Positions 1 through 32,900 of a stretch of DNA of 35,008 nt are shown here, in pieces. Position 1 is the first letter of the stretch; each line of letters starts with the position of its first letter. The stretch lies in IMG/VR virus record IMGVR_UViG_3300025030_000293, positions 1 to 35,008 of that record, one strand, 5' to 3'. Position numbers and translations under genes: made by a program. Origin of the DNA: a virus. The notes under the pieces are model-generated. The model had not been told where the DNA came from, made no database searches, and saw only the letters and a list, made by a program, of their open reading frames with translations.

Positions 1-188
1 GTGTCTGGATCATTTGGATCCAAGCGACCAGACAACACTTCTTTGGCTTCTTCCTCGGTAAGATCACCGTTGTTGAGGTATCCGCGCACCGCAATATAAC
101 GCACACTACGGGCATAAAATACATCTTGCTTAGTCCTTTCCATTAGTTCTCTCCTTGTGCCCTTGTCATCTCGGATTGACCTGCCCAT
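1..188 (-). CDS. Hypothetical protein, C-terminus cut by window edge
   Basis: Only the first 62 codons are inside the window. I chose the ATG at 188-186 because a very strong AAGGAGG site lies 7 bases upstream; a second in-frame ATG at 143-141 has a weaker GGAGA site. The visible protein is charged and soluble-looking, with the stretch VRYIAVRGYLNNGDLTEEEA, and has no membrane segment. It follows the primase-like gene after 61 bases in the same direction, so it probably belongs to the replication operon. I do not recognise the family. Confidence 0.7.
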   Translation of the reverse strand, partial: MGRSIRDDKGTRRELMERTKQDVFYARSVRYIAVRGYLNNGDLTEEEAKEVLSGRLDPNDPD

Positions 189-249
189 CTTTCACCTCCT
201 TGGTATCGGAACCTATATTTTTGAGCACGTCCGCTGGTATCGTTCTTGT

Positions 250-1086
250 TCATTTTGCTTCAGCAATCGCATTCAAAATCTCATTGTCCATTTGTTTCAT
301 GTGCAAGTCATTGGGATCTTTGCAGCCATCTGGCCAGTTTGGTTTGGCTATTTTGCCGCGCCATCCCAACTGCCGGGAATAGTTGATCGCTTCCTTCTCC
401 TCACCCTGATCCGGGAAGAAAATAACAGGCTTGCGCACCATCTCAAAATCTTCCAACCGCAACGTCATACCCCATACAGAGGACACTGCTGGTATCCTGA
501 GTTCAGTTAGAGTGAGTGCATCCAACACACCGAATGTAACCACCAAGTATTCACCGGTCAGATACAGGTACCAGTCCGGCACATAAAGACTGGACGTAGA
601 ATGTGTCACATACCGGGCGCCGGTGGCTTCTTGCACATGCTGACCGGCACGTAATATGTAACCAGTTAGATTATCATCAGCAGAAAAAGTTGGGATGACA
701 TACCACCCATTATGCCATCCCAACTTCTGTCCTTCAATCCTGCACTCCAAGCCGCGCATTCTTAGATACCAGCCCAGACTTTCGGTGTATTTTGAAAGCA
801 TGTGGTGGGCATCAAAAACGAACTTGACTGGATCGCTGGCACCAGTGGGTGGCTTCCAGTCCGTTGACTCTGTGTTGTATAACATGGATGGTGGTGTCCA
901 CCCACGCAGCTTGCGATCCAACACATACAGATCTCCACTGCGACCACAGGATAGACACCTGAACCACCCATCTTTATAGACCAACATGGATGGGCTGGTG
1001 TCGTGATGGAAAACACACAACGCTGAATAGTATTTTTCATATTCCTTGACGTGCTCCAAGCGAGAAACAACACTTCTCAGATCCAT
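250..1086 (-). CDS. DNA primase-like protein (CHC2 zinc finger + degenerate TOPRIM)
   Basis: 278 aa. The N-terminus carries a CHC2-type zinc finger: C24, H27, C44 and C47, in the setting FHHDTSPSM...GWFRCLSCGRSGD that is typical of DnaG and T7 gp4-type primases. Residues about 178-265 resemble a TOPRIM fold, with a VVT-x-GVLDAL strand-turn, the PVIFFPD strand and a terminal KDPND motif. Family members normally have Glu in the first motif and DxD in the second; here the Glu position is Phe185 and the DxD reads D226-Q-G228. The role by family would be primer synthesis at the replication fork, but the substitutions make catalysis doubtful. There is no helicase domain; the SNF2 helicase is in the same operon. 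The ATG at 1086 has an AAGGA site at long spacing. Confidence 0.85.
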   Translation of the reverse strand: MDLRSVVSRLEHVKEYEKYYSALCVFHHDTSPSMLVYKDGWFRCLSCGRSGDLYVLDRKLRGWTPPSMLYNTESTDWKPPTGASDPVKFVFDAHHMLSKYTESLGWYLRMRGLECRIEGQKLGWHNGWYVIPTFSADDNLTGYILRAGQHVQEATGARYVTHSTSSLYVPDWYLYLTGEYLVVTFGVLDALTLTELRIPAVSSVWGMTLRLEDFEMVRKPVIFFPDQGEEKEAINYSRQLGWRGKIAKPNWPDGCKDPNDLHMKQMDNEILNAIAEAK

Positions 1087-1104
1087 GTTGGCCCATCCTT
1101 CATG

Positions 1105-2133
1105 CTACGAATTTGTGATCTCTTCCAATTTTTCTTTGGCCTGTTCGTTATTGACAGCCAAAGAAGTCAACATCTTTAGTGCATCTGTGTCCCCGGCTTT
1201 GGCCTGATTTGCTAGCATGTCTAATATAGTCGGAGCAGACGCCTGTTTCTTCTTGGTCTTTGGCGCTTCAACGTCCTGTCCGGTGAGTTCTGCAACAATC
1301 TTTTTGGCCTCAACCTTGGCTGCTTCTACTTCCTCGGCTTTGGCCTTCTTGATCTTGGCCAGTTCTGCCGCGTACTTGGCATTTAGTTTTGCCTCTTCAT
1401 CACCCTCAACAGGCACTTCACCCGTGTCAGGATCGGGTTGCAGATTTGGTGCTTCAACTTCCTCGTCATCATCTTCGACAGGAATTTCGCCGATGCTTTT
1501 CACCCAGCCATTTTCATTGAGTGAGATGGCCAGCGGACGTTTGCGGGAGAGCAGCAGCTTTTCAATGAATACCAATACGTTGTCTGACCAAGGGATGCTA
1601 TCAATCTCAAAGTCCATGCCACCCAGCGAAAGGAATTCAGCTAGTTTCTCGCCATAAACCAGTGTAATTGCCCAAGCTTCATCGTTTGATCCGTCAATGG
1701 TAGGCGGAGAATACTTCTCGAAGCCATACGTCAGGTTGTATACCAGCCGATAATTCTTCCATTTACCAGCGGTGATGTCAAACAGGGCGGTGAATTCCAG
1801 GTGGGCTTTGATCGAATACTTTTTGTTTGCTGAGCTAATACCGGAACGGGCAGCCACCTCACGAATGGTAGGAGGTTCGTTTTCTTTGGCGGCAAAACCA
1901 GCAAACACACAACGGTGTGTTCCATTGACTGGCCGAGCACCATAGATTTCAGTGTTGCTTGTGTTCAAAGTGATAGCTTGGCGCCCGTTCTTGATGTAAT
2001 CCGGTGCGTCAGCCAACAAAACAGTGATGGCTTGGTTGTTGTCTTCAAAGATTACATTGACTTTCTCACCAACGATAGACACTGTGGCTACACCAGAGCG
2101 TCCCTTTCCACCTTGTTTAGTAGGTACAGGCAT
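1105..2133 (-). CDS. Hypothetical protein with acidic linker and Lys/Ala coiled-coil tail
   Basis: 342 aa, with an AAGGAG site before the ATG. Residues about 1-215 look like a folded beta-rich domain. Residues about 220-250 are strongly acidic (runs of D and E with proline). Residues about 250-300 are Ala/Lys/Glu-rich and probably helical (KYAAELAKIKKAKAEEVEAAK), followed by KTKKKQ and a short helical end. It lies between the primase-like gene and the zinc-finger gene. A folded domain plus an acidic flexible region in a replication operon could suggest a single-strand DNA-binding or replication accessory protein, but no family motif was recognised, so this is only a contextual guess. Confidence 0.75.
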   Translation of the reverse strand: MPVPTKQGGKGRSGVATVSIVGEKVNVIFEDNNQAITVLLADAPDYIKNGRQAITLNTSNTEIYGARPVNGTHRCVFAGFAAKENEPPTIREVAARSGISSANKKYSIKAHLEFTALFDITAGKWKNYRLVYNLTYGFEKYSPPTIDGSNDEAWAITLVYGEKLAEFLSLGGMDFEIDSIPWSDNVLVFIEKLLLSRKRPLAISLNENGWVKSIGEIPVEDDDEEVEAPNLQPDPDTGEVPVEGDEEAKLNAKYAAELAKIKKAKAEEVEAAKVEAKKIVAELTGQDVEAPKTKKKQASAPTILDMLANQAKAGDTDALKMLTSLAVNNEQAKEKLEEITNS

Positions 2134-2169
2134 TTCAAATCTCCTTCAGAGTGTAATTGATAGAGGGAT

Positions 2170-2406
2170 TCATTGTGTGTGTATGTCGCGAATATCCCGG
2201 ATGATAGACCGTACGTTCCGGTCAAATTGATCCTCAACTTCTTCTTCTTCATCAATCAAGTCGAGAAGATAGGTACATTTTGGATAGCGTATGCAACCCC
2301 GGAATGGCTCACTTGTTAGGCTATTGATGCGCTCGACTACCTGTCCACCACATAGCTGACAGATTTCGCCCGGCACAATCTTGAAGCCTTTGATAGGAAT
2401 GGGCAC
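2170..2406 (-). CDS. Small topoisomerase-type C4 zinc-finger protein
   Basis: 78 aa from a GTG start that lies 2 bases after the stop of the preceding gene, so translation is probably coupled; no clear ribosome site is visible. Residues 16-44 form a C4 finger of the kind repeated at the C-terminus of type IA topoisomerases: CQLCGG, then FRGCIRYPKC. The tail is very acidic (DEEEEVEDQ) and then basic. The finger suggests single-stranded DNA or protein binding, which fits its place between the helicase and primase genes. The protein lacks any catalytic domain. Confidence 0.75.
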   Translation of the reverse strand: MPIPIKGFKIVPGEICQLCGGQVVERINSLTSEPFRGCIRYPKCTYLLDLIDEEEEVEDQFDRNVRSIIRDIRDIHTQ

Positions 2407-2408
2407 GG

Positions 2409-2771
2409 TTAGAAAGTTCGAGGCTTATTTCGGAACTCATCGTGCATTGTATCCAATACAGTTGCCAACTGATCAGCCACATGCGCAATGCCTTCTGGGG
2501 TGAGAACGACATAGACGGAGTCGAATTCCACAACCTCTGCCAAAGTAACTGTTACTTCGACATACAAACCGCCACCGTACATCACAGAATACGGTTTGTA
2601 TTGGGTGCGATCCGGCATCATTTGTTGCACTGGTAGCCTGAGTTTCAGCTTGGTCGGATCTTTGGTGTCCAGACGTATGTGCGCCGTGGGTGCAAGGATA
2701 ACTTGCTGCTCCGGGAATATTGGATTGATAACCGTGTTGGGGTCATAGGTTAGAGACGGTTCTTTTGACAT
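2409..2771 (-). CDS. Hypothetical protein in replication operon
   Basis: 120 aa. Its ATG overlaps the helicase stop by one base (TAATG arrangement), showing translational coupling. The sequence is soluble and mixed alpha/beta, with GGGLYVEVTVTLAEVVEFDSVYVVLTPE-like strands in the middle and a helical end. No family was recognised. The palindrome AAGTAACTGTTACTT lies inside the gene at 2543-2557. Confidence 0.75.
   Translation of the reverse strand: MSKEPSLTYDPNTVINPIFPEQQVILAPTAHIRLDTKDPTKLKLRLPVQQMMPDRTQYKPYSVMYGGGLYVEVTVTLAEVVEFDSVYVVLTPEGIAHVADQLATVLDTMHDEFRNKPRTF
2543..2557. promoter_or_regulatory. Palindrome AAGTAACTGTTACTT (copy 1 of 4)
   Basis: Perfect 7-bp arms around one central base, inside the hypothetical gene at 2409-2771. 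Identical apart from the central base to copies at 6677, 12978 and 14917. It is probably a site for a dimeric regulator, in the manner of dispersed repressor sites. Confidence 0.55.
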
Positions 2772-5344
2772 TAGATCTCCAGTAAATCCATGACAGGAAT
2801 GTCATCAATTGAGATAAGCTGGCCAAAGATTTCACGCTTGGTTTCTATGAGTTTGTGAACACGCTCGTCCATGGTGTGCCGGGCAACCAGGTAGATGATC
2901 TCTACATTGGACTGCTGGCCAATACGATGTAGTCTGGCTTCGATCTGTCCCTCCTTTCCCGGATTCCACTCGCGCTCCACAAAGATGAGAGTGTCCGCTG
3001 AAAATAAATCAATACCTTCGCCGCCCGCCTGAGAGATAATTGCCACCCTTACTTGTGGATCGTGCAAGAATGCGAATACATTATCGGATCGCTCGTGCTG
3101 TGGGGTGTCACCTACTATGGTGATCACGCCGAAGTGCTTGAGCTTTTCAACCAAGGTGGCTACTACTGCTTTGTGATGGGCAAACAACACAACCTTTTGT
3201 TTGGAGACCAGCACATTCTCGGCCAGCTCAACTGCAGGCCCAACCTTCATGTGACCAATAATCTGCCGCAGTTTAGCAACCAATTCCAACTTGGAAGCCT
3301 TGCGATTTTCCTGCACCTGCCGCCGTGCATCTGTGAGTGCCTCATTGTAATCTCGGGCAAACAGCTTATCGTAGTCCACAGGAATATTTACCCGTGTCAT
3401 AGATGGGAGTTCAGACATGACTTCTTGCTTCGTGCGGCGAAGGAAGTAGGGCGCCAGTTCTTGCTTCAGTTCCTTCAAATGTGAAGCGCCACTGACATCC
3501 CAACCCCACCTGCTTTTATAGGCGCCACAGTAGGTAATGGCATACTTCCAATAAGAATTCCACCTGCCGGGAGATATGATATTCAACTGGGGAAACAATT
3601 CAATGGGACGGTTCAGGAATGGGGTACCGGAAAGCCCAAGGAAATAGGGCGTATTCAAGGACTTGGCTGCGCGTGTGCGCTGAGAGTCCTTGTTGGCGAG
3701 AGCGTGACTCTCATCAAATAAAGACAACTGATAACCACGTGCCCGTATGCTTTCAATTTTACGAGTAAAGATCGCATAAGACATAATAGTAAATTTCGCG
3801 TTGGGTAGGGGTTCAGAGGATGAAGTAACCACTGCGCTATCCTCTCCAATCCAATTATTGATTTCGTCTTGCCACTTATAAGTAACCGAAGCCGGAGAAA
3901 CAATCAAGATACTGTGAAAGCCCCGTTCTTGTATGTAACCCAGAGCCTCGATGGTATTATGAGTGAGTATGGCATGTTCAGTGACATACAAATGATCTTC
4001 ACTATCTACAGAAATACACACACTCGCTACATTTCTTGAGAACTCTACTGACTTCATAGTTCTAGTTGGTCTTGCATGAGAGCCAGGCACATATCTGATC
4101 GCTTTGCGTTCAACCGTGAAGGGCAATACCCATTCAGGAAGGCGCATTCTGATTTGATATTCAACAGGCTTATCTTCTCCTGCTCTATCATAAGTATTTA
4201 CAGATGCCACCCCGCCTAATTCCTCAACCAGTTCCTGAACTCCTAACGCAAGTTTATGGCTGATAGAATGATAAATTACTTTGTTACGAGTTAGAGATAC
4301 AGATCCGCCACCATCCATGAGACCATGTAATAAAGAAACACGTTGGGAGGGTGATGCCAATAAATAAATATCGGGTATGAATTTGTTTGCACTGAGTATA
4401 TCTAATCCAAGATGCTGTATCATACCAATCAAACCGCGAACCCAAAAGCGTGATGCCTTTCCAGTGTATGATTTACTATATGAGCAATCCATTCCTTCTT
4501 GCATCATCTGTGATCTAATTTGATCAACGTCATCTGAGTGTGTGCTGGCTACCACAGAGGACTGAGTGAGATTACCACTTGCAAGCAAGTATCCTAAAGT
4601 ATAGGGAGGAATAGGAAGTGCAACGGTTGCGAACTCAACTGGAGCAGTAAGCATAGGTAGATACAATGCAGTCTTGGATAGGTTCAAGGATTTCTTAGTT
4701 TTAGATTGAATTATACAAGGAAGATTTTTGAGTTGTTCAGTGGTAAGAACTAACTCTTCCCAATGATCCCCGCCCATTCTATAGCGCACAGTCCACAAGT
4801 GCTCAAGCCCGGACTCTACTGAACTATTGTCACTAAAGGTTACACGATATACATCTTTCTTTCCTTGAGGAAAGACACCTGTTACTCTGTGTGGCTGCCC
4901 ATCAGAACCTATTACGTGATCTCCAATTTTTATTTCACCTATCATTCTCCAGCCGTAAGGTGTGAGCACCTGGCTATCAATGGGCTGGAGTTTTCCCAGG
5001 CCCATCTCATCTGCTATGATGGCTCTGCCGTTAGTGTTGTGCAGAAAATCCAATGCCTTTATCTGGAAAGGATACATCTTACTTCTTACCAGATTGGACT
5101 TGGAAAATATTGGATCCTTACCCAGATCCAGTACAGGTTTGTCAATCAGAAACCCATACTCCTTACCGAATTTGACACTCATTTTAGCAGAATATTCAGA
5201 TGCCGGTAGCCACCACAAACGAGCTTCCCCATCAAAGCGGGCATCCGGTAGGGCTTTGATCTTGTTCTTCATACCCATAGAAAAAGGAAAGTGAAACTCG
5301 ATGCGCAACTTTTCCTGGTTATAGCTTATCTGTTTATGATCCAT
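2771..5344 (-). CDS. SNF2-family DNA helicase/ATPase, interrupted by an intein
   Basis: 857 aa from the ATG at 5344; a GTG two codons earlier (5350) is possible, but the AGGGTG site fits the ATG better. Without the intein the host protein is about 512 aa. Helicase motifs in order: motif I DEMGLGK|T (split by the intein), Ia ILIVSPAS, II DESH, III LSGTP, V QAGGEGIDL and VI QIEARLHRIGQ. These are the signature of SNF2-type superfamily 2 ATPases, which translocate on double-stranded DNA. Phage members are found in replication or recombination modules, and here it is the first gene of the minus-strand operon running towards the primase-like gene. Because the P-loop is split, ATPase activity should need protein splicing. 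No HNH or other added domain is seen. Confidence 0.95.
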   Translation of the reverse strand: MDHKQISYNQEKLRIEFHFPFSMGMKNKIKALPDARFDGEARLWWLPASEYSAKMSVKFGKEYGFLIDKPVLDLGKDPIFSKSNLVRSKMYPFQIKALDFLHNTNGRAIIADEMGLGKLQPIDSQVLTPYGWRMIGEIKIGDHVIGSDGQPHRVTGVFPQGKKDVYRVTFSDNSSVESGLEHLWTVRYRMGGDHWEELVLTTEQLKNLPCIIQSKTKKSLNLSKTALYLPMLTAPVEFATVALPIPPYTLGYLLASGNLTQSSVVASTHSDDVDQIRSQMMQEGMDCSYSKSYTGKASRFWVRGLIGMIQHLGLDILSANKFIPDIYLLASPSQRVSLLHGLMDGGGSVSLTRNKVIYHSISHKLALGVQELVEELGGVASVNTYDRAGEDKPVEYQIRMRLPEWVLPFTVERKAIRYVPGSHARPTRTMKSVEFSRNVASVCISVDSEDHLYVTEHAILTHNTIEALGYIQERGFHSILIVSPASVTYKWQDEINNWIGEDSAVVTSSSEPLPNAKFTIMSYAIFTRKIESIRARGYQLSLFDESHALANKDSQRTRAAKSLNTPYFLGLSGTPFLNRPIELFPQLNIISPGRWNSYWKYAITYCGAYKSRWGWDVSGASHLKELKQELAPYFLRRTKQEVMSELPSMTRVNIPVDYDKLFARDYNEALTDARRQVQENRKASKLELVAKLRQIIGHMKVGPAVELAENVLVSKQKVVLFAHHKAVVATLVEKLKHFGVITIVGDTPQHERSDNVFAFLHDPQVRVAIISQAGGEGIDLFSADTLIFVEREWNPGKEGQIEARLHRIGQQSNVEIIYLVARHTMDERVHKLIETKREIFGQLISIDDIPVMDLLEI
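3956..4990 (-). mobile_element. Class 3-type intein with decayed LAGLIDADG endonuclease
   Basis: 345 aa inserted between the Lys and Thr of the SNF2 Walker A motif (MGLGK | T). The N-terminal residue is Leu (LQPIDSQVLTPYGW), not the usual Cys or Ser. The non-contiguous Trp/Cys/Thr set that defines class 3 inteins is present: Trp in EHLWTV (codon 4793-4795), Cys in SVCISVDSEDHLYVT (codon 4016-4018) and Thr in ILTHN just before the terminal His-Asn. The +1 extein residue is Thr. In the middle, two LAGLIDADG-like helices are visible (LGYLLASG and HGLMDGGG), but the position-8 acidic residue is Ser in one and Gly in the other, so the homing endonuclease is probably dead. Confidence 0.9.
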
Positions 5345-5380
5345 GATCACCCTATCAAATTGTCAGGAACTATGAGTTGG

Positions 5381-5914: not shown

Positions 5915-6442
5915 ATGGATAAGAAGATATCCTGGCTGAGAATAGATTCTGATTTCCTTTTGGTTGTTTATCGGCGTCTGGCGGCGGCTTCTGGTGAGGC
6001 GACTATGGCCGCCTTGAGCCGGGAGATGGAACGTCTTGGTATATACAATCGGCGCACTGGTAAACCTTTTTCACGCCAGGCCTATTACTATGCTTTGGCG
6101 GCGATCCCTGGGGCTTTGCCCCTACTGCGCCGAGGAGTTGGATTGGTGCATGATCGTCCTGTCATCTGTTCCAATCCCCAATATCCCAACATTACTTCCT
6201 GGTTCAAGCGCAAGATGCCGGATATACAAGTCATTGAATATGATCAGATTACCCTGGACGATGCTTACAGGCGAGTCATCTATGGTGCGCCGCCCATTGG
6301 TTGCATGGGTGTGGCGGCGGCGGTGTATTGGATTTACCATGAGCGTAAGCCACTGCGGTTTGACGCTGTTCCGCTGGATGATGGAACTTATTACCTGCGC
6401 AGGATGGTATGGCAAGATCACATACGGCACCAAAAGAACTAA
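5915..6442 (+). CDS. Hypothetical protein, possible N-terminal helix-turn-helix
   Basis: 175 aa with a strong AGAGAGGAGAG site. Residues about 25-65 (ALSREMERLGIYNRRTGKPFSRQAYYYAL) resemble the DNA-binding helix-turn-helix region seen next to serine recombinases, where a helix, the phrase 'R-R-T-G-K-P-F-S' and a second helix occur. The rest (DQITLDDAYRRVIYGAPPIG...) is unrecognised. It forms a two-gene plus-strand island with the HNH gene, against the direction of its neighbours. This may be a self-contained regulatory or homing unit. Function not assigned. Confidence 0.8.
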   Translation: MDKKISWLRIDSDFLLVVYRRLAAASGEATMAALSREMERLGIYNRRTGKPFSRQAYYYALAAIPGALPLLRRGVGLVHDRPVICSNPQYPNITSWFKRKMPDIQVIEYDQITLDDAYRRVIYGAPPIGCMGVAAAVYWIYHERKPLRFDAVPLDDGTYYLRRMVWQDHIRHQKN

Positions 6443-6705
6443 GTCCAGCGGCTCTGCTGGAACTGTATAATTGTACATGCGCCATGTGTTTTGGTAAGGC
6501 TGTTACCATTCACGAGATCGAACCAAAGTCCAAAAGGTCTGCTGATTGGTGGGAATTTGATAATAGGGTACCGCTTTGCGGCTACTGTCACGACCTGGTT
6601 CATCTGGAAGGCACTGCCCGCTGGCATGATCGGTTGCACGAGGCGCGGGCAGTGCTGGTTTCTCTGTACGGGATTGAAGTAACCGTTACTTTACCTCATA
6701 CATAG
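6409..6705 (+). CDS. HNH endonuclease-like protein
   Basis: 98 aa. It overlaps the end of the preceding gene by 34 bases, with an AGGA site inside that gene. Motifs: CAMC at about residues 25-28, IHEIEP at about 34-39 (first His-Glu), DNRVPLCGYCHDLVH at about 51-65 (the Asn and the final His with a second CxxC). This is the zinc-stabilised beta-beta-alpha HNH nuclease fold. Phage HNH proteins act as homing enzymes or assist terminase nicking; here the distance from the terminase favours a free-standing homing enzyme or a partner of the 5915 gene. The last codons contain the palindrome AAGTAACCGTTACTT. Confidence 0.85.
   Translation: MARSHTAPKELSPAALLELYNCTCAMCFGKAVTIHEIEPKSKRSADWWEFDNRVPLCGYCHDLVHLEGTARWHDRLHEARAVLVSLYGIEVTVTLPHT
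6677..6691. promoter_or_regulatory. Palindrome AAGTAACCGTTACTT (copy 2 of 4)
   Basis: Perfect 7-bp arms at the very end of the HNH gene, 14 bases before its stop and close to the end of the converging minus-strand operon. Confidence 0.55.
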
Positions 6706-19220: not shown

Positions 19221-19454
19221 ATGGCCGAAAGACAACGTTGGGCATCAGAAGCCTGGAGCAAAGTCAAAGAAGGAAGCCTGAGTAAATTAGGCTGGCCGGA
19301 CAGGGCCAAATTGTTGAATGCTGCCAGGAGAAACCGTAAAGAAGTAATGGGCAAACTGAATTTCCTGGCAAATGCCAGCGGAGATCCAGCGACCAAGGCC
19401 AAGGCACGGGCGATTGCCAATTACATCAAGAAGCAACTCGATAAGGAAGCATGA
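19221..19454 (+). CDS. Small basic protein, possible terminase small subunit
   Basis: 77 aa, helical and basic (RAKLLNAARRNRKEVMGKLNFLAN; TKAKARAIANYIKKQLDKEA). It is immediately upstream of the terminase large subunit with an ATGA overlap, the usual place for the small subunit. No small-subunit motif is recognised, so the assignment rests on position and charge only. Confidence 0.65.
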   Translation: MAERQRWASEAWSKVKEGSLSKLGWPDRAKLLNAARRNRKEVMGKLNFLANASGDPATKAKARAIANYIKKQLDKEA

Positions 19455-21043
19455 GCAAAATTCCCAAGCGCGAGACGATCACATTACCAGATATTCAAGG
19501 CACAATAAAGCCATTCCGTTACAAATTTACGGAATGGCTGGATCGTTTCGGCTTTCTGGTCAGGGATGTATGGGACATAGAAAAGGGGGAGTGGTCGGGT
19601 ACAGGTTGGCTGCAGTTATTCCCAGAGCAGCACCGCTTTTTTGAATTTGCGCTCCAGATGAATAAGGAAAAGCAATTCAAGTATAGCACTGTGCTGTATT
19701 CCACAATTAAGAAGAGTGGGAAAACTATTTCAGCGGCAGCCATAGGTTGTTGGTTTGCTGAAGTGGCTCCACCCGGCACTGAAATTTACGTTATTGCCAA
19801 TGATCTCGAAAGTTCAGAGGGCCGGGTCATGCGCGACATGAAATACCATGCCAACATACGCGGTTACAATGTAAAGCAGTATGAGATCGTGCTGCCTAAT
19901 GGAACATTTGTGAAAGCCTTAGCTCAAAGTTACAAAGCTGTTGCGGGTTCGCGTCATGCCTTGGTGCTCTTCGATGAACTATGGGGTATTACCAGTGAAA
20001 TTACCCGGCGTACTTATGAAGAGATGACGCCAATTGCTACTATTCCATGGTCTCTCAGGTTTATTGCCACGTATGCTGGATTCATCAATGAATCTGATTT
20101 GCTGTGGGATTTGTATTTGAATGGTGTTGGTAGAGATGAGCATGAAGATGGGCGTGGCAAACTAATTTACGACATGCTGGACGTGCCAGTATGGGAGAAT
20201 GGGCGGCAGCTTACTTACTGGAACCATGAGCCGCTTTTGCCTTGGCAGGTGCCTACTTATTACGATGAGCAGCGCGAAGCTCTCCGTCCTGCGGCTTATT
20301 TGCGCCTGCATGAAAACCGCTGGGTGACAACCCACGAGGAGTTTGTGCCTGCCGAGTGGTGGACGTATGCAGAAAGTCAGATGCAAGGATCGGCGGAATT
20401 GTGGAAAGATCATCCTTACTTTGGCTTCCCGGTGTATATTGGAGTGGACGCCGCGTCTAAACGAGATTCCACAGCAGTGACGGGCGTAACTTATGATGAA
20501 GCCAAAGGTGTGGTTATTGAGTTATTCCATAAGATATGGACGCCGGTAGAGGGAGTGCAACTGGATTTAGATGAAACGGTCAGTTCCTTTTTGCAGGAGA
20601 TGTGCAAAATATTTCATGTGGCAGTAATTGGTTACGATCCAGCACACCTTTACCAATCGATGTTGAATTTACAAAAGGCTGGTTATCCGGTAGCTGAGTT
20701 TATCCAGTCGATTGGCAACATGACCAGGGCCAGCCAGAACTTGTACGACTTGTTGAAGTTCAGGCGCTTCTACACCTATAAGGATGAAGAGGCCAGAGCA
20801 CACATACAGAACACAGTTGCGCAGGCCGAATCCAGTGGCATTCGTATCGTAAAGCATCCAGGATCATTCCGTAAGAAACCGGTGGATTATGCCATTTCGT
20901 TGGCTATAGCTGCATATCTGGCAGTCAAAGGTGGGGGCATCGACATCACAGAGCCGCTGACTGTGGTATCTCCATTCTCGGATATTACCGCCTGGAACAA
21001 ACCCGGCGATATGCTTGAGCTGCCATGGCAGTTCAAAACTTAG
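19451..21043 (+). CDS. terL: Terminase large subunit
   Basis: 530 aa, normal for the family. The ATPase domain has a Walker A-like loop STIKKSGKTISAAAIG at about residues 84-99 and a Walker B HALVLFDELWG at about 170-180. The C-terminal nuclease domain shows the acidic residues of the RNase H-like fold: YIGVDAASKRDSTAV at about 331, VIGYDPAH at about 394 and KKPVDYAISLAIAAY at about 475-490. This motor packages DNA into the procapsid and cuts it. Overlaps the preceding gene by ATGA; the portal starts 8 bases downstream. Confidence 0.95.
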   Translation: MSKIPKRETITLPDIQGTIKPFRYKFTEWLDRFGFLVRDVWDIEKGEWSGTGWLQLFPEQHRFFEFALQMNKEKQFKYSTVLYSTIKKSGKTISAAAIGCWFAEVAPPGTEIYVIANDLESSEGRVMRDMKYHANIRGYNVKQYEIVLPNGTFVKALAQSYKAVAGSRHALVLFDELWGITSEITRRTYEEMTPIATIPWSLRFIATYAGFINESDLLWDLYLNGVGRDEHEDGRGKLIYDMLDVPVWENGRQLTYWNHEPLLPWQVPTYYDEQREALRPAAYLRLHENRWVTTHEEFVPAEWWTYAESQMQGSAELWKDHPYFGFPVYIGVDAASKRDSTAVTGVTYDEAKGVVIELFHKIWTPVEGVQLDLDETVSSFLQEMCKIFHVAVIGYDPAHLYQSMLNLQKAGYPVAEFIQSIGNMTRASQNLYDLLKFRRFYTYKDEEARAHIQNTVAQAESSGIRIVKHPGSFRKKPVDYAISLAIAAYLAVKGGGIDITEPLTVVSPFSDITAWNKPGDMLELPWQFKT

Positions 21044-23943: not shown

Positions 23944-26900
23944 ATGGCCAAAAAATTCTGGGAACAGCCCTGGTATCTTGAGTATCTCGAAGATCTCAAG
24001 CGCAAACAAACCAACAAAAAAGATACCAATGAGCTGCTGAAAACCACGATCAATTCCACTGTCAAAAATCCCAATGTTCAGATGGTTCCCAGGCGCGTTG
24101 CCAACATCTCACCAGCGCGGACTTACATACAGGCTAAACAAGCCGAGATTGAGCGGATGGTTGGGCCAACCAAGGTGCTACCACGCCCATCTTCAGTGAC
24201 AGCCATGCCGGATCGGGTGGTAGAAAAGCTGCCACCTGTTTCACCTTACACTTATTTACCACAGGCGGCGCCACCACCCAACCGACCTGATCTTGAAACA
24301 GTACAACCAGCGGGCGCCAGGCGAGTGAAGCCCGCCCCGCCGCCCAAACCAAAACAGACATTCAAAGCAACGCCCGACACAAAAGTCGGGCAAGAAGTCT
24401 ATTTATCTTATGATAAGAATGCCAGGCTGACGTTCATTACTGCGCGTCCGACTGACATAAAGCTATTCAATTACAATGGAACAATGGTTCCAGTTTCCAA
24501 AAATGACAGCGGGAAATGGGCATTAGATAAGGAAATAACCCAACTGGGTGTCACGCTCGACAACATGATCCCCATGGTGTACACGCCGGATCTGTTGGAA
24601 ACCCTGAATTCTACCAAGACTGCGGCGGATTTATTGAAGCCGTTGACGTTGGATGGCATGATCAAGCTGGGCGAGGCGTTGTATTATGATCCGATTGTTA
24701 ACCAAATAACAGCTCGGCCTACCCAGACACAGATATTCTGGACTCCAGATCACAAGGAATTGACGTATGAGCGTACCGCCACCGATGATAAAGGAATGGT
24801 GGTAACTAATGATCCGGTTGAATTTGATGTACAGTCTAGTAAATTCTTACAGGAAACACTTACCAAGGAGCATGTTGAGTTCGATGCGTTTACTAATCTG
24901 GATGTAGCAGGCAATCCAACCCGCGCTTCAGATATTCGATTTGGGCTGGGCACAGTCAGAACCGAAGATTTACAAGCTATGCACGGGCTGGATTACACCC
25001 TGAATAAACAGACAGGCGAAACTGTGAATTTGCTGGATGAACAGGGAAATGTATATCCATTCTACCTGACGCCGGAAACCCCGATTGCTAATTTTCCCAT
25101 TCAGATGAAGAACTTTGAAACCGCTCTGCGGAATTCAAAATTATTCCAAACCCTGGTTGTACCCGTCTGGGCCAAATTTGATCCAGTCAAGGCCGCGCCC
25201 TATGTTGATGGTGCCATTGCCGCAATTTCTGGTTTTTATGCTTTGTTTGATCAGACATCCATAGTGCCGAAACAATCTACATTGTTTTCGTCCGAGTCTC
25301 AAACGGTACGGCGCAGTGGTTTGGGCAATACCGTTCCAGCATTCTTATCCAATTTGCTTACGCAATTTCTTGGTCGGCCACTAGTATCGGCAACCCGTTT
25401 CCTTGCATTTCCCATCTCTCTATTTGAAAAAGCCACAGCATCCGGAATGTGGAAATTCGCCCAGTCCATACAAGATCAACTAGAGATGGCGGTAAAGGAC
25501 AAACGTGCCGTTGTCGATGACCAATTACAGAGGGCTATGTATCTGGAATTGGAGCGTCCGGGCATCTCATTATCTCCAACCCAATTGCTGCAGGACACTT
25601 ATGAATACACTGAGAAGTTTGATGTTGGAGATCGAGGTGTAAGTACCCAACTGGAAATGGCGGGTCTGGGTTCTAACGATGCACTGGTCACATACGTGAA
25701 CCGCATGAATTCTAATGTTGCTGCCGGGCAGTCCTTGATGGATGGCGCAATCCGCAAACAATACTCGGGATTGACAGGAGAAGCTGTTGATGAATTTGCC
25801 GAGGGCATGTACCGGTACTACGTGTGGGGTCTGGATTGGGCGGCGATCAACAATTGGATAGATGGCAGATACGAACAAAAACCCATCCAGGCCGGGGTTG
25901 ACAAGATTTTGGCTGGAGATGTACCTGTTACTTCAGATGAGTTTCACTTTCTGTGGCAGTTCATGGCCTATAACACGGTTACTCCCACGGCAGACGTGCG
26001 CAGCTTTATGCCCAAGTTCAATATTCAACCGGACACTGGAGCAAATTATTTATTCTTCCGGCACGCGGCTGATGTTAGCTTGGCCAAAGGTCGTCCACTT
26101 ACACTGGATGAACTATACGAAGAATCCATAACTTGGTTGGCTGGTTATTATCAAAATCCCATTTCTACGAAAGAGTTCCGGGAACTCATGCTGCAGCGGT
26201 CACAGGCCAGACATGATCGGGCGCTGACGCTCAATCGCACTGCCAAGAGCTACAGGGTATTGGGTGAAGGAGCACCTGATGAAGCTACCCAGCAGTATTA
26301 TTTTGGGTTAGCTGATGAAATGATAAAGGCTGCCCAGGATCTATTAGTGGCCACTTATCCAATGGATCGCAAGGCCGGGAACATAGATCCATTTTCGGCC
26401 TACACCTGGGATGCAAAACCGGAAAGATTGCAGCAAGTTTATCAGAATGTGGCTTTGGCCGAATTACAGCTTGGCCGCCCGCCGACACGCCAAGAGATAA
26501 CAGACATAGCTTCCATGTCGGTGGATATTGTTATCGAGATGGGCGGCGAGATGGTCTTCGATGCTATGGAGTTATTGGGCGTATTCAAGGTGGGGAAGAT
26601 TGCTATAAACGCCGCACAAAAGGGAATTACCAAGACGCTGGTGAAATCTGCCAAGGGTATATCTGTTCTCAATGCGCTTGCGGCAGTCCAAGATGAAATC
26701 TCCAACATGGCTTTGATACGCCACATGAAAGGCAGAGCTTTGGCTTCTCAGGCATTCAAGCAGAGTGAAGTCATGGCCGAACTTACATCGGACATATTAC
26801 GCTCCAACCCACAGACTAAGGAAGAATTTGTGGCCTTGTTTGAGCGGGTTGCCAATGATATTGTGAGGATCAAGAGCGCCGGTACCAAAACAGAGGCAGC

Positions 26901-29900
26901 GGAAATCATTGCTTCCATCATGCCAAATCGACCAACCATTTTGTCGGCGCACACCTTACAAGAAGCGGCAGATTTGCTGACGGAGACAATTGATCCAAAG
27001 AGGTGGCCCACAATAGCTGGTGAAGTATGGGATGAAAACTGGAGTCACATGATCGAGCGGGCCGCACACGATTACAACAAAGTGTGGAAACTAGACCCGA
27101 GTGATGCCAGCTTGCAGACGCTCAGAACCAATAATATCACAGCCAAAGCCACCCAGAATTTCTTTAGTTGGGCCGGTCAGAGCCGAATGGCAACTGAACT
27201 TGGATCACAGTTCCGTAAGACATTCAGTGATGCCAACCGCGCTTGGACTAATTCAGTGATTTTCAGTGACACCTGGTGGGCTAAGCTGGGGTTTACTGGC
27301 AAGGAATCCACGGCGGGAATTTACAAATGGCGCCAGATATTAGAGGGAGTTTACAAGCTCAATCAAACCTTTATGAACGCATGGGTGTGGGCTACACTGG
27401 CGCGGCGTCCGGCCTGGATGTTGTACAATTTCATTGATAATACTTTCCGGTTTTTTGTAGGCGGAGCTGGAGATATACGGGACATCTTTTTCCTGATGCA
27501 GACCGGAGTAGGACAGAAGATTGCCAGCAATGTCAAAATCCCGGCGCATGTTGCTTCCGATCTGAGTGCACTTACCTTCAGGTATGTAGTCGAGCCACTG
27601 GGAGAAGGCATTTCGCAGAAGAAATATCTGCCCAGCATTCTCAATTTACGGGACAATCCGCTGGGATTTTTACAGCACTATCGGGTGAATTATTTGGCCA
27701 TGACAGATGGGAAGAATGCACTGACCAAAGCATACACGGTTTTCAGCGCATTCCCGGTGTCGGTGAAGAGTTTAGCTAATGCTATAGAGTATGGCACGCG
27801 CATTCGCATGTGGTACAAGCTCTATACCAATAATGTCAACGTGCTCAACAAGACTATTCTGACCAATTTGTTAGATGGAGCAGAGGCGATTGGTGAAAGT
27901 CCACGCGTCCTGGGTTTGAAGGAACGGTTACTTGCCACCGGCATGAGTGAACTGGATGCCAACAAGTGGGTACAGCATGTAAAAGACATGTGGCTGACCT
28001 CTGGTTCTAACTCTCAACGCTTCGAGCGGTCGCTCCAATTGCTAGCTACACCGGGTGAGTATCTCAACGAACGGTTATTCCTGCCGGAGATTATTACCAA
28101 AGCAGCCTGGTTTGATGAAACGCTACAACGCCCACTGATTACTGCAGTGTTGGATGAACTGCAGAAATTCGTTACCACCCAGGCAGATGCCGGGCTGACC
28201 AAGCTCACGAAGGTGCAAGTGGATCAGTTCTTCGACCGGGTTATTGCCATGTTCGATGCAGAATCCAATGCCAAGCTGAGCACCATTTGGAACCAACAGG
28301 CCCAGATTTTGCGCAACTTCGACATAGATTCAGGGCGCCAGGAATTGAAGGGTACTCCATATTACCCGGAAGCCACCACCAAGAGTAAGGACTTTCCGCT
28401 GGTGACTGATTCTGGAAATGATGCGGTCAAGGCCATTCCAAGGGATGCTACCAAACTAACCAACACTCAGCGGCGTTTGGCCAAGAAAGCTGTAAAAGAG
28501 AACCGGGTTGTCATACCCAACGATGCAGATGAGAATCTGGTCAAAGCTGTAAATACCATTCGGGATCGGTCTGATGCGATTGGAACTAAACCGCAACCAC
28601 TTACGGATGAACAAATCCGAGCAGTAGAGAATGATCTAAAGGATATATTACCGGCAGATGTACCGACCAATGCCTTTGAAATGGAAGTGTTAGACCGCGT
28701 CATTCAAAAGAATATACCGCGCGGCATTTATCTGGAAGCAGGAAAGCGCCGGGCAATTGCCGCAAAGAACTTTGGGGATGTGTTTGGCCAGCCGGAATTC
28801 ACACAAAGCCGGGTATACAGCCGGTTGGAACGCCCAGACCGTGATCTGATTGCGGCTCATGGTAGAAACTTGGATGATGCCATACGTCATGTGGCATCAT
28901 CCATAAACTCATTTTGGATTGAGGTTTGGCCGGGGCCGCGACAATTGGATGCAGCCGGAAACATTATTTTCACGGCGCGTACCAGTAAATCATGGGAACA
29001 GGCTTTCAACCTAATAGCGCGGCAGTGGAACAGCCAGGTATTCATGTATGAGGAGTTGTTGGACGATGTCAGGCGTGGAAATTTCACCCTGCTGTCATCC
29101 TACTCAGTAAAAGATATGTTGGACAAGGCAGGCATCCAACCGATGTTCGACGCCAAAGGCAGAGTGGTCAGGATCAGGATGCACAATCCTGTAACCAACG
29201 AGTGGAAGACTACCGACTCTGTGGTAGCGGTTTCCCAATTCAAGAAGATCACAGGCGTAGAAAACCAGCGGATATACACCGGCAGCATTCAGGAACTTGG
29301 CAAGGGTGTAATACCAGACAGCAAGAAAGCCTTTACTATCGAGGCCAAAATTTTGCCAACACCGTTTCCATCTTATGATGAAATGGTGAACAGTACTCCG
29401 CGTCTGGCTTTGGCAATCAAAGAAGGACGCTTGGCAGATGCCAATCGAATTTTGGCTGGTGAATTCCGTTATCACATGTTCTATGAAAAGGCTGGACAGC
29501 TTGTTCCAGCCGACAGTATGTTATTGAACCGCATCTGGAAAGAAATCGGCGGAGATTCTAAGAAACAGTGGAAGACGCTGCAGGATGTACCGCCTGATAT
29601 TACCCACAAAGTATTGGATGACTGGGCACAAACTCATCACGGCTATCAGTTAGGCAAGATGGTAAAAGGTTTGCAGGATGATCTGACGGTTGTGTTCCAA
29701 AAGCAATATAGCTGGACTGAAGCTGGTGCACGGGACTACTTCAAGCTGTGGGATAGGGTTATGGAGAATGTATCCCGATTGTTGTCGGATACACTTGGGC
29801 GGCCCATAACCAAGGATGAAACCTGGGCACATGTGTACTTCGGCTTCTACAAAATTGATCCGACTGTAGATGGTAAGGCCATGCGCGGGTTGGATGGTCG

Positions 29901-32900
29901 TCAAGTATTCCAATCTAATCTAAATGATTTCATCGAGCGCAGCATGACCAACAATATGACCGGTGCAGAGATCCTGGAACGCATGAAATCCCTGGGATTT
30001 TCTGAGGGTGAACTGAAATGGAATGGAATGTACCAATGGCTGGTCAAAAACAAAGACGAAGCCATCACCCAAAGCAGTCTGAAGAAGTTGGTATTTGAGC
30101 GCGAACGCTATCTTGAAGCTCAAACTCAGGCGGGTGGTGTGTGGAGTGTCACGCTAAAAGATGGAAAAGGAAACCAATTAGTCCAGGCGACCGGAGCGTT
30201 GTCACTGGATCCAGACACAAATTTGTTTCGCTTCAACCTGACAAAGGTAGAGGGGGATGTAGATGAGTATTCATTACAGCGGCTGCAGCGTTGGGCAAGA
30301 GATGAAGAGGCCACCCACCTGGTCATGCCGGATGGGGTTGTACATGATTTGCGCAAGGTTCCGCCCTCTCTAAAAGCTACTCGCAGATCAGATTTTTCTT
30401 TCCTGGGCAGCACCGATTTTGTAAAGAACGAACTGGATCGACATTCAGCGATCATCAAAGCTTTTGCCGGGTCCAATCCAACCACATCTCTACATGAGAT
30501 GTTTCACGCTGTGGAAGATTATTTGCCGGACGCAGCGAAAAAGGTATTGGACGATTACGCTTCCGAGACCTTACTGCGGATGCAGGTAAGCAATGATCCA
30601 GCCTACAAGTTGTACAAAGACTTGGATCCGGCAGTCGCCCGCAGTGAGATTACAGCCCGAGCATGGGAAAAATATGTAATCACTGAGATGGCGCCGAACA
30701 GCGAGGTGGGGCACATCTTCAAGGCTATCAAGAATTACTTGGTGAATTTCTATCGCAGCATGGGTGATTATTTTGGCGGGGTATATCTGACGCCCGAAGT
30801 GCGCAAGGTATTCGATCAGATGGTGGGAGACGGCTGGAAGCAGGCTCAGGCTGACAAATTACCAAAGCCGCGTTCTCCCGGCCCCAAACCCAAAGTACCG
30901 GCAAAGCCAATTACATCTGAGGACGCACTCAAGGCTGCGCGGAAAGCCAAAGAAACGGTTACTTCCAAGCCGGTTATCAAGAAGAAGGATCCGGCAACCA
31001 AGGTGGCGGATCTGGTGGCAGTGGATGATATTGACCGGGCGCAGGGAAGGTGGCTGCAAAAGGGTACGTTCTATCCTGTACCGCGCAAGCGGAGATTCCT
31101 GAAAGGCTACACCGCCCAGGATGTAATTGATCACGAGATCAAAGAACTTCGTGGCGATTTGAAGATTAACCCCGACATAGATATGTCCTCTGTCAGCGCA
31201 CAACACACAATCTGGGTGGCATTTGATGAGGGTGTGGCAGTCAAGCATTACAAATTCAGCGATCCGGCCCTGAAGAACCTGACATCTACACAGTATCCAT
31301 ACTTCCGGGTATTGGCTGTGGATGGAAACGGCCACGCTCTAATTGAATACTCAGCAAAAGCACCCAAGGGAGCAGAGCCGTTGATGCAGGAGATCCACGC
31401 ACACCAATCTATTCTGGAATTGATGAACGGCCCGGAGAATGAACTAAAGACAGCCATGCGCGAACTGTTGGATATTTATACTCAGGATGATGTGGCCCGG
31501 TTGGTTAGTCAATTTGAGCCCATTGTCACCAAGATTGAAGACAAGCTAATTGCCAGTAATTACACCATGTTGGCCAAGGATCTCACACCAGCCGAGAGGG
31601 AGGCATTATCCTTCCTGGCCAACAACTTCTTACCACCTTCTATTGCTAGCACATACCCGCAAAAACCAGTGCAACGTTTCGCTCAGCAGGTTTTGGATGC
31701 CAACGGAAACTACATCAGCTTTGGGGTGGTCGGCAACATTGACATTGATGATATTATATATGTCAACGACTTTGCTACCTTCTTCGACCGGGTAGCCAAT
31801 GCAGTTTGGGAGCCAATCAGTAAAGGAGAATTGCCTAAAGTCCAGCGCATCAGCGAGGATGTGTTGTCTATTTTGGAGCAGCGCGGGTTCGACCCGGTAG
31901 TTTTAGCTGGTAACATATCATCGGATTACATACACAATGCTTTGATTTCCGGGCGCAAGCTGACACCCATACCTGTACCTGATCGCTCATCCTTTATGGA
32001 CTTTGCCGCGCGTTCCAAGGTCAAAACCCCGGATGGCCGACCACTTCCGGTTTACCATGCTTCACGCTTCAACTTTGTTGAGTTCAATGCTGCCAACGAT
32101 ATGGGCCACCATTTTGGTACAGTCTATGCTGCTTTGGATAGAGCGCATTGGCAACCTAGTTGGCAGTTGCACGCCTACTGGCTGAACATCGAAAATCCAA
32201 TCAAGCTCACCGATAATGGCGGCTGGGGCTACCTGGGTGTGGCCAATCAGTTGGCAGAAATTGATTTGATTTCCGCTACTGAAGCACTGGCTTTGAAGAA
32301 TGAAGCAGCTATGGCCGATAATATTATGGAAGGGCTTATCCAAACCTTGGATGAGACTACTCCAATTACCATGGTGCAGGCCGACAAATTGATGAATGAG
32401 TTGTATACCTCCATGCCAATTCTGAAAGACTATGGCAACTTCGATGCCAAAGATCTGATGGTCAGTTGGAACTTGAATGCCGGGTTATATGCCAATTCAA
32501 AGACAGTTTACAGCCCGCTAAATATCCACCGCCGTGTAGGATCTTCTCGGGTGGTGGCGGGGATGAAGAAATCTTATGCCATTGACGGCATCGAATATGT
32601 CAATGCCTTTGAAAATCGCGGTTCCACATCCTACATGGCCTTCTATAAAAATCAGATCAAGCGGGTAGACAATGTTGGAACTTACAATCCAAAGGTAGAT
32701 CACGTAAGGTTCCAGATGTTGAGCGACCTGATTGATGACTCTGCCGAGCATGTTGAGAACAGTCAACGGGCATTGAAAACCTGGACAAAATCAGTGTCAG
32801 GGATGTTGGATAATGTAGATAGTTTGTTCCTTGATGCCCGCACTGGATTTATGAATGCCAACGTGCTGGTTTCTTATCCCGATGCGCTCAGCAAACCCAA

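Follow-up and report, generated by a model that had tools for sequence, protein, structure and literature searches.

Two questions are raised by an intein that has no nucleophile at its first residue and carries a homing endonuclease domain: by which route it can leave its host protein, and whether the endonuclease can still help it to spread. The intein considered here lies in the Walker A motif (P-loop) of a helicase encoded in the window, which is the whole stretch of DNA analysed, an IMG/VR virus record of 35,008 bases. The observation is confirmed as real and not due to chance. Taken together, sequence and model evidence make it very probable that a phage SNF2 helicase is interrupted in its Walker A loop by a class 3 cis-splicing intein, with predicted class 3 chemistry and an endonuclease that is expected to be dead.

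The precursor reading frame (2771-5350, minus strand; Table 1) runs unbroken for 859 codons, and the spliced extein would have 514 residues. Pfam finds SNF2-rel_dom (PF00176, 2.2e-28) and Helicase_C (PF00271, 1.7e-11) on the flanks, and Hom_end_hint (5.1e-8) and LAGLIDADG_3 (PF14528, 6.6e-7) on the insert. Both domains of the SNF2 family are present in the host, and its Walker A motif is whole once the flanks are joined. In PHROGs, the flanks match phrog_62, DNA helicase (1.2e-87), and other parts of the window match DNA primase (250-1086) and terminase large subunit (19451-21043); the helicase, primase and terminase matches together indicate a tailed phage setting. The window also holds a very long frame of 3688 residues (23944-35007, plus strand) that is still open where the contig ends; its match to an ADP-ribosyltransferase of polyvalent-protein type is weak (E 6.7e-5, under the Pfam cut-off). 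A small frame at 6409-6705 (plus strand), which overlaps the end of the frame 5915-6442, has a weak HNH match (E 0.0089), also under the cut-off.

Table 1. Features of the intein-bearing helicase gene (window coordinates).
Feature	Position	Strand	Basis
Intein-interrupted SNF2-family helicase precursor, 859 aa, GTG start	2771..5350	-	ORF, Pfam, PHROGs
C-extein: remaining SNF2 motifs and Helicase_C	2774..3955	-	ORF, Pfam
Thr+1, predicted second nucleophile of splicing; Walker A Thr once the helicase is spliced	3953..3955	-	Sequence, empty-site homologues
Intein, 345 aa, predicted HINT domain with inserted LAGLIDADG domain	3956..4990	-	Sequence, Pfam, AlphaFold2 model
Asn345, block G:7, C-terminal cyclising Asn	3956..3958	-	Sequence; N in 92/92
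Thr343, block G:5, T of the WCT triplet	3962..3964	-	Sequence and PDB alignment; T in 91/92
Cys325, block F:4, predicted first nucleophile	4016..4018	-	Sequence and PDB alignment; C in 91/92
Gly228, place of block E catalytic Asp, C-terminal end of predicted helix 214-228	4307..4309	-	Model, alignment
Ser138, place of block C catalytic Asp, C-terminal end of predicted helix 129-138	4577..4579	-	Model, alignment
Trp66, block B:12, W of the WCT triplet	4793..4795	-	Sequence and PDB alignment; W in 83/92
His64, block B:10 catalytic His	4799..4801	-	Sequence; His in 92/92 aligned rows
Leu1, intein residue 1, no N-terminal nucleophile	4988..4990	-	Sequence
GLGK of Walker A, end of the N-extein	4991..5002	-	Translation; intein-free homologues DEMGTGKTIQ, DEMGLGKTVQ

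Intein residues 1-345 run from window position 4990 down to 3956 and are residues 121-465 of the frame. The N junction reads ADEMGLGK/LQPID and the C junction ILTHN/TIEAL, which splits Walker A between Lys and Thr (GLGK/T). Joined without the intein, the flanks read IADEMGLGKTIEALG; at the corresponding place, the uninterrupted helicases of Rhodothermus phage RM378 and Thermus phage MN1 read IADEMGTGKTIQ and LGDEMGLGKTVQ, respectively, and both of these intein-free homologues have a continuous DEMGxGKT at the insertion point. An extein tree groups them with the window helicase and the intein-bearing L132, L054 and L129 (83% SH-aLRT). An earlier note on this DNA had placed an intein at 3956-4990, between the Lys and the Thr of the P-loop of a phage SNF2 helicase. 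Translation and the empty-site homologues reproduce these coordinates exactly, the insertion point agrees with the junctions and the uninterrupted sites, and the identity of the host is borne out by its two Pfam domains, PHROGs and the RM378 and MN1 homologues. A class 1 intein with a displaced N junction is rejected: the 120-residue N-extein contains no Cys, and the empty-site homologues fix the junction at K/T.

Class 3 inteins are described by a WCT motif and their own splicing route (PMC3196547, PMC5222942, PMC5050341 and PMC7664689, in the parts available). The window intein has no Cys, Ser or Thr at position 1, and has Trp at B:12, Cys at F:4 and Thr at G:5; His at B:10, His at G:6 (His344, between Thr343 and Asn345), Asn at G:7, a nucleophile at +1 and a HINT fold complete the set. 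The residues from which the earlier note had derived a class 3 type, namely Leu1, EHLW (Trp66), SVCISV (Cys325) and LTHN (Thr343), are all found in the sequence. The best PDB sequence matches are the class 3 DnaB inteins 6bs8 (1.9e-10) and 6rix (6.4e-9), and in both alignments their W, C and T pair with Trp66, Cys325 and Thr343; Trp66 aligns with W67 of 6bs8, and Cys325 with its F:4 Cys. The signature residues, PDB alignments, family comparison and structure prediction agree on the class 3 type.

The AlphaFold2 model, which was run on a 54-sequence alignment (mean pLDDT 95.6, pTM 0.93), shows a HINT domain into which a LAGLIDADG domain is inserted. In VIA-align, the whole chain ranks the class 1 intein PI-SceI at the top (Z 27.2), which is because of the endonuclease domain. 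When the HINT part is aligned separately, the best of the mini-inteins is the class 3 M. smegmatis DnaB intein 6bs8_C (Z 19.1, 1.5 A over 122 residues, 30% identity), with MchDnaB1 (6rix) at Z 18.4. The class 1-type Prp8 intein also reaches Z 18.4, a tie by the rule of VIA-align, with a worse rmsd of 2.2 A. This near-tie means that the fold alone is insufficient to assign a class, and the class rests on the active-site residues.

In the proposed route, Cys325 would attack the peptide bond between Lys and Leu1, giving a branched thioester at block F, from which the N-extein would be transferred to Thr+1. Cyclisation of Asn345, aided by His344, would release the intein, and an O-to-N shift would restore GLGKT. 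The P-loop is split before splicing, so the precursor is expected to lack ATPase activity; because Thr+1 is itself the Walker A Thr, we can soundly infer that this activity waits for splicing. There is only the faintest chance that Thr+1 attacks the N-terminal junction directly, as in a class 2-like route, with Cys325 merely assisting. The absence of a nucleophile at residue 1 is shared with class 2, but the known class 2 inteins described in the available parts of PMC4031507, which are KlbA orthologues, begin with Ala, have Ser at G:6 and Asp at F:4, and are followed by Cys at +1. The window intein instead carries the class 3 W and T together with Cys at F:4, His at G:6 and Thr at +1.

The assignment of the nucleophile to Cys325 is consistent with the family at large. 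Relatives were gathered by two viral scans, one genome scan and a search of phage records, giving, after nine partial frames had been dropped, 92 different full-length rows: the window, relatives on viral contigs, one bacterial locus and six loci from phage records. Among these, F:4 is Cys in 91, G:5 is Thr in 91, and B:10 His and G:7 Asn are invariant; B:12 is Trp in 83, Phe in eight and Leu in one, and the +1 residue is Thr, Ser or Cys (83, 7 and 2). Residue 1, in contrast, takes 13 types, including Ala (34 rows), Cys (11) and Ser (3). A variable residue 1 beside a near-invariant F:4 Cys is expected if F:4, and not residue 1, provides the nucleophile. L045 is the sole row of the 92 without the F:4 Cys, and it lacks the W and T too. 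The eight natural FCT variants (L018, L019, L020, L069, L087, L096, L104 and L124) occupy the same SNF2 Walker A site and combine Phe at B:12 with the retained Cys F:4 and Thr G:5. Ten more inteins, two of them in record G004 and eight in phage records, bring the set to 102 rows, with WCT in 91, FCT in eight, and ICT, WCS and LGH in one each. A third viral scan found 51 new loci, of which 21 were removed as duplicates or repeats of older rows; the remaining thirty give 132 rows, with WCT in 120, FCT in nine and again one each of ICT, WCS and LGH.

Among 50,697 phage records, 558 match the window intein; the best 60 of these reach at most 38% identity to it, isolated phages among the matches listed come no nearer than 38-39% to the window or L051, and WCT is present in 12 of the 14 phage-record inteins tabulated. 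Record G004, an 83-kb phage, has three WCT inteins, L147 (32178-33200), L146 (59384-60430) and L145 (41506-42546), which lie in an SNF2 helicase, a RecA-like protein and one further protein with the intein after GK. The scan of the genome collection gave a single relative, L047 on the Phytohabitans flavus chromosome: an intein of WCT type that keeps both LAGLIDADG acids and interrupts a chromosomal protein, with junctions GPPGTGK/G and THN/T.

To judge from the alignments, the identity of residue 1 may still matter to some degree in the family. On an 82-row tree, made up like the other intein trees of class 3-type rows without a class 1 outgroup, the Cys1 state requires at least four changes, and Cys1 occurs in five rows of this less redundant set, where the Cys background is 1.5% (P 0.008, ignoring relatedness). 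Some class 3 inteins reportedly have Ser1 or Cys1, an observation attributed to Tori and Perler in 2011 and to Brace et al. in 2010. The definition given in the available parts of PMC7891396 demands that there be no Cys at the N-end, and so leaves uncounted any WCT intein with Cys1, which most of the 11 Cys1 rows of the present set are. By that definition, 1701 class 3 inteins were present in nr by 2020, 82.5% of them with LAGLIDADG, and deviations at W (6.1%) and T (4.6%) were rare. The description of class 3 inteins as rare, which the earlier note had given, is out of date on this count.

A rival reading is a dead intein, one that keeps its signature while the precursor stays unspliced and the phage does without the helicase or obtains it elsewhere. 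There is a precedent in the class 3 intein of Arthrobacter FB24, a non-splicing pseudogene, and the endonuclease half of the window intein is already degenerate. In the account available from PMC3196547, however, that pseudogene has lost the F:4 Cys and the B:10 His, whereas the window intein keeps every splicing residue, and its extein is open, full length and equipped with both helicase domains. A search of viral contigs with the C-extein found only one relative, the sister contig L048, which also bears on this point. Its positions 1-4609 are 98.7% identical overall to window positions 1-4614, and it ends within the intein, covering residues 127-345 and the C junction. The 657 nt of intein contain no difference (0 of 219 codons changed), against 24 of 394 changed codons in the C-extein. 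A dead intein is on these grounds highly improbable. The unchanged intein sequence also hints, weakly, at recent homing. A mismatch-free run as long as the longest arises in 0.4% of draws with random mismatch placement; the hint is weak because mismatch-free runs of 617 and 542 nt occur elsewhere in the alignment, and general recombination would also explain it.

The state of the endonuclease was overlooked in the earlier note, whose class 3 reading otherwise stands. A LAGLIDADG domain is present (PF14528, and a fold match to PI-SceI), and both catalytic acids at its helix ends are replaced, by Ser138 and Gly228. Across the 132 rows, Asp occupies position 138 in 118, with Asn in 11 and Ser, Leu and Val in one each; position 228 has Asp in 129, Gly in two and Asn in one. 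Both acids are missing only in the window and in L053, whose endonuclease domain is also shorter in the alignment. Asp-to-Asn changes in PI-SceI abolish Mg-dependent cleavage. With the LAGLIDADG fold kept and both acids gone, the window domain is not expected to cut DNA, and this copy of the intein would pass on mainly together with its phage.

The loss at position 138 is shared by a clade of ten metagenomic inteins (the window, L050-L054, L061, L157, L159 and L160), all of them inserted after GxGK of Walker A and, where measured, about 38-52% identical to the window intein. Residue 138 is Asn in eight members, Ser in one and Leu in one; residue 228 is Asp in eight and Gly in two; and residue 1 may be Leu, Cys, Gln, Glu, Asp or Ala. 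A careful tree was built from a choice of 39 of the 102 rows, after removal of positions 1, 66, 138 and 228; it leaves out L114, L135 and L152, which also lack Asp138 and are placed elsewhere on the 82-row tree. The 39-row tree unites the window, L050-L054 and L061 in a single clade (bootstrap 100, SH-aLRT 99), and Asp138 is absent from all seven and present in the other 32, which corresponds to one change. In a quick 37-row tree, the ten members lie on one side of a branch, at a support of 91% SH-aLRT that is not decisive; this tree includes L135 and L204 and requires three changes at 138. L204 (1402-3906, plus strand) is a DnaB-like helicase with an intein at FGK/S and Asn at 138; it lies outside the window clade on the tree, which suggests that it lost the block C Asp independently.

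By Pfam, the hosts are SNF2 proteins for the window, L051-L054, L157, L159 and L160, a Strawberry-notch C-terminal domain protein with ddrB-ParB for L050, and a terminase for L061. One intein lineage in the P-loops of SNF2, Strawberry-notch and terminase genes implies that it has moved between genes, and only the two cross-family cases are taken as good evidence of this. Within SNF2 genes, the inteins of the window and L051-L053 are 42-51% identical and the exteins 24-28%, and the extein tree places the window with L132, L054, L129, RM378 and MN1, apart from L051-L053. Transfer between SNF2 genes was nonetheless set aside as a candidate: a single clade of the four exteins passes the AU test (p 0.247), and the tree has several very long branches.

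The moves between genes might predate the loss of the acid in each branch, which is less simple on the tree. Otherwise the intein would have moved with its active site already altered, through host recombination, an endonuclease acting in trans or a one-acid nicking enzyme. A fuller version of the last option, that the block C Asp was lost once at the base of the clade and that a one-acid, perhaps nicking, enzyme still drives spread among P-loops, with the window copy a recent further loss, is conceivable but unlikely; it builds on Asn in eight of ten members, the kept block E Asp and the occupation of at least three ATPase families. Retention of Asn instead of a mixture of residues mildly suggests that function has been kept, and the acid losses in the window and L053 look like later decay. 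No one-acid LAGLIDADG inteins were found in a literature search judged mostly by title, and the nickases in the available parts of PMC3943268 are engineered ones only. An account of the ten-member clade was not found in the literature searched, which was largely without subscription journals.

The endonuclease loss and the ten-member clade deserve to be followed up. Related inteins that share an altered endonuclease active site and yet occupy three ATPase families bear on how inteins move, and closely related inteins at one P-loop site with varied residue 1 bear on whether Cys1 becomes neutral after takeover by F:4. The latter point belongs to the debate about a possible origin of class 3 from class 1, as set out in the available parts of PMC3196547 and PMC7664689.

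Among known systems, there are published class 3 precedents for a Snf2 helicase as host and for a helicase P-loop as insertion site. The window intein, a clean class 3 example whose empty site in phage SNF2 helicases is well defined, adds a member to a known kind. The Deinococcus radiodurans Snf2 intein, known here by description and not by sequence, is likewise class 3, with a block F branched intermediate reportedly detected by Brace et al. in 2010 (cited in PMC3196547 and PMC5222942; splicing is mentioned in PMC11219805, all in the parts available), but its host is a bacterium and not a phage. M. smegmatis DnaBi1 (6bs8; PMC6195587, in part) shares the class, the WCT triplet and the helicase P-loop, where its +1 residue is the P-loop Ser; it differs in being a mini-intein without an endonuclease and in having DnaB, not SNF2, as host. 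For DnaBi1, a regulatory role has been proposed, as splicing is blocked by a disulfide between the F:4 Cys118 and Cys48. That oxidative stress or another signal also delays splicing of the window intein, with the helicase switched on afterwards, would be compatible with the preferred class 3 reading, and the lost endonuclease fits an intein retained for some other reason; the idea is still improbable, since DnaBi1 Cys48 corresponds to Val47 and the other cysteines of the window intein are residues 92 and 169. A redox switch of the DnaBi1 type is rejected, the partner Cys being replaced by Val47; the window intein also lacks the Asp62 of DnaBi1, with Gly61 at block B:7. Class 3 inteins of mycobacteriophages and other phages, reported in terminase, DarB-like and DnaB proteins (PMC5050341, in part), resemble that of the window in their phage hosts and, mostly, in WCT, but most of those tabulated here keep both LAGLIDADG acids, unlike the window. 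The nine other clade members share with the window intein the Walker A site and the missing block C Asp.
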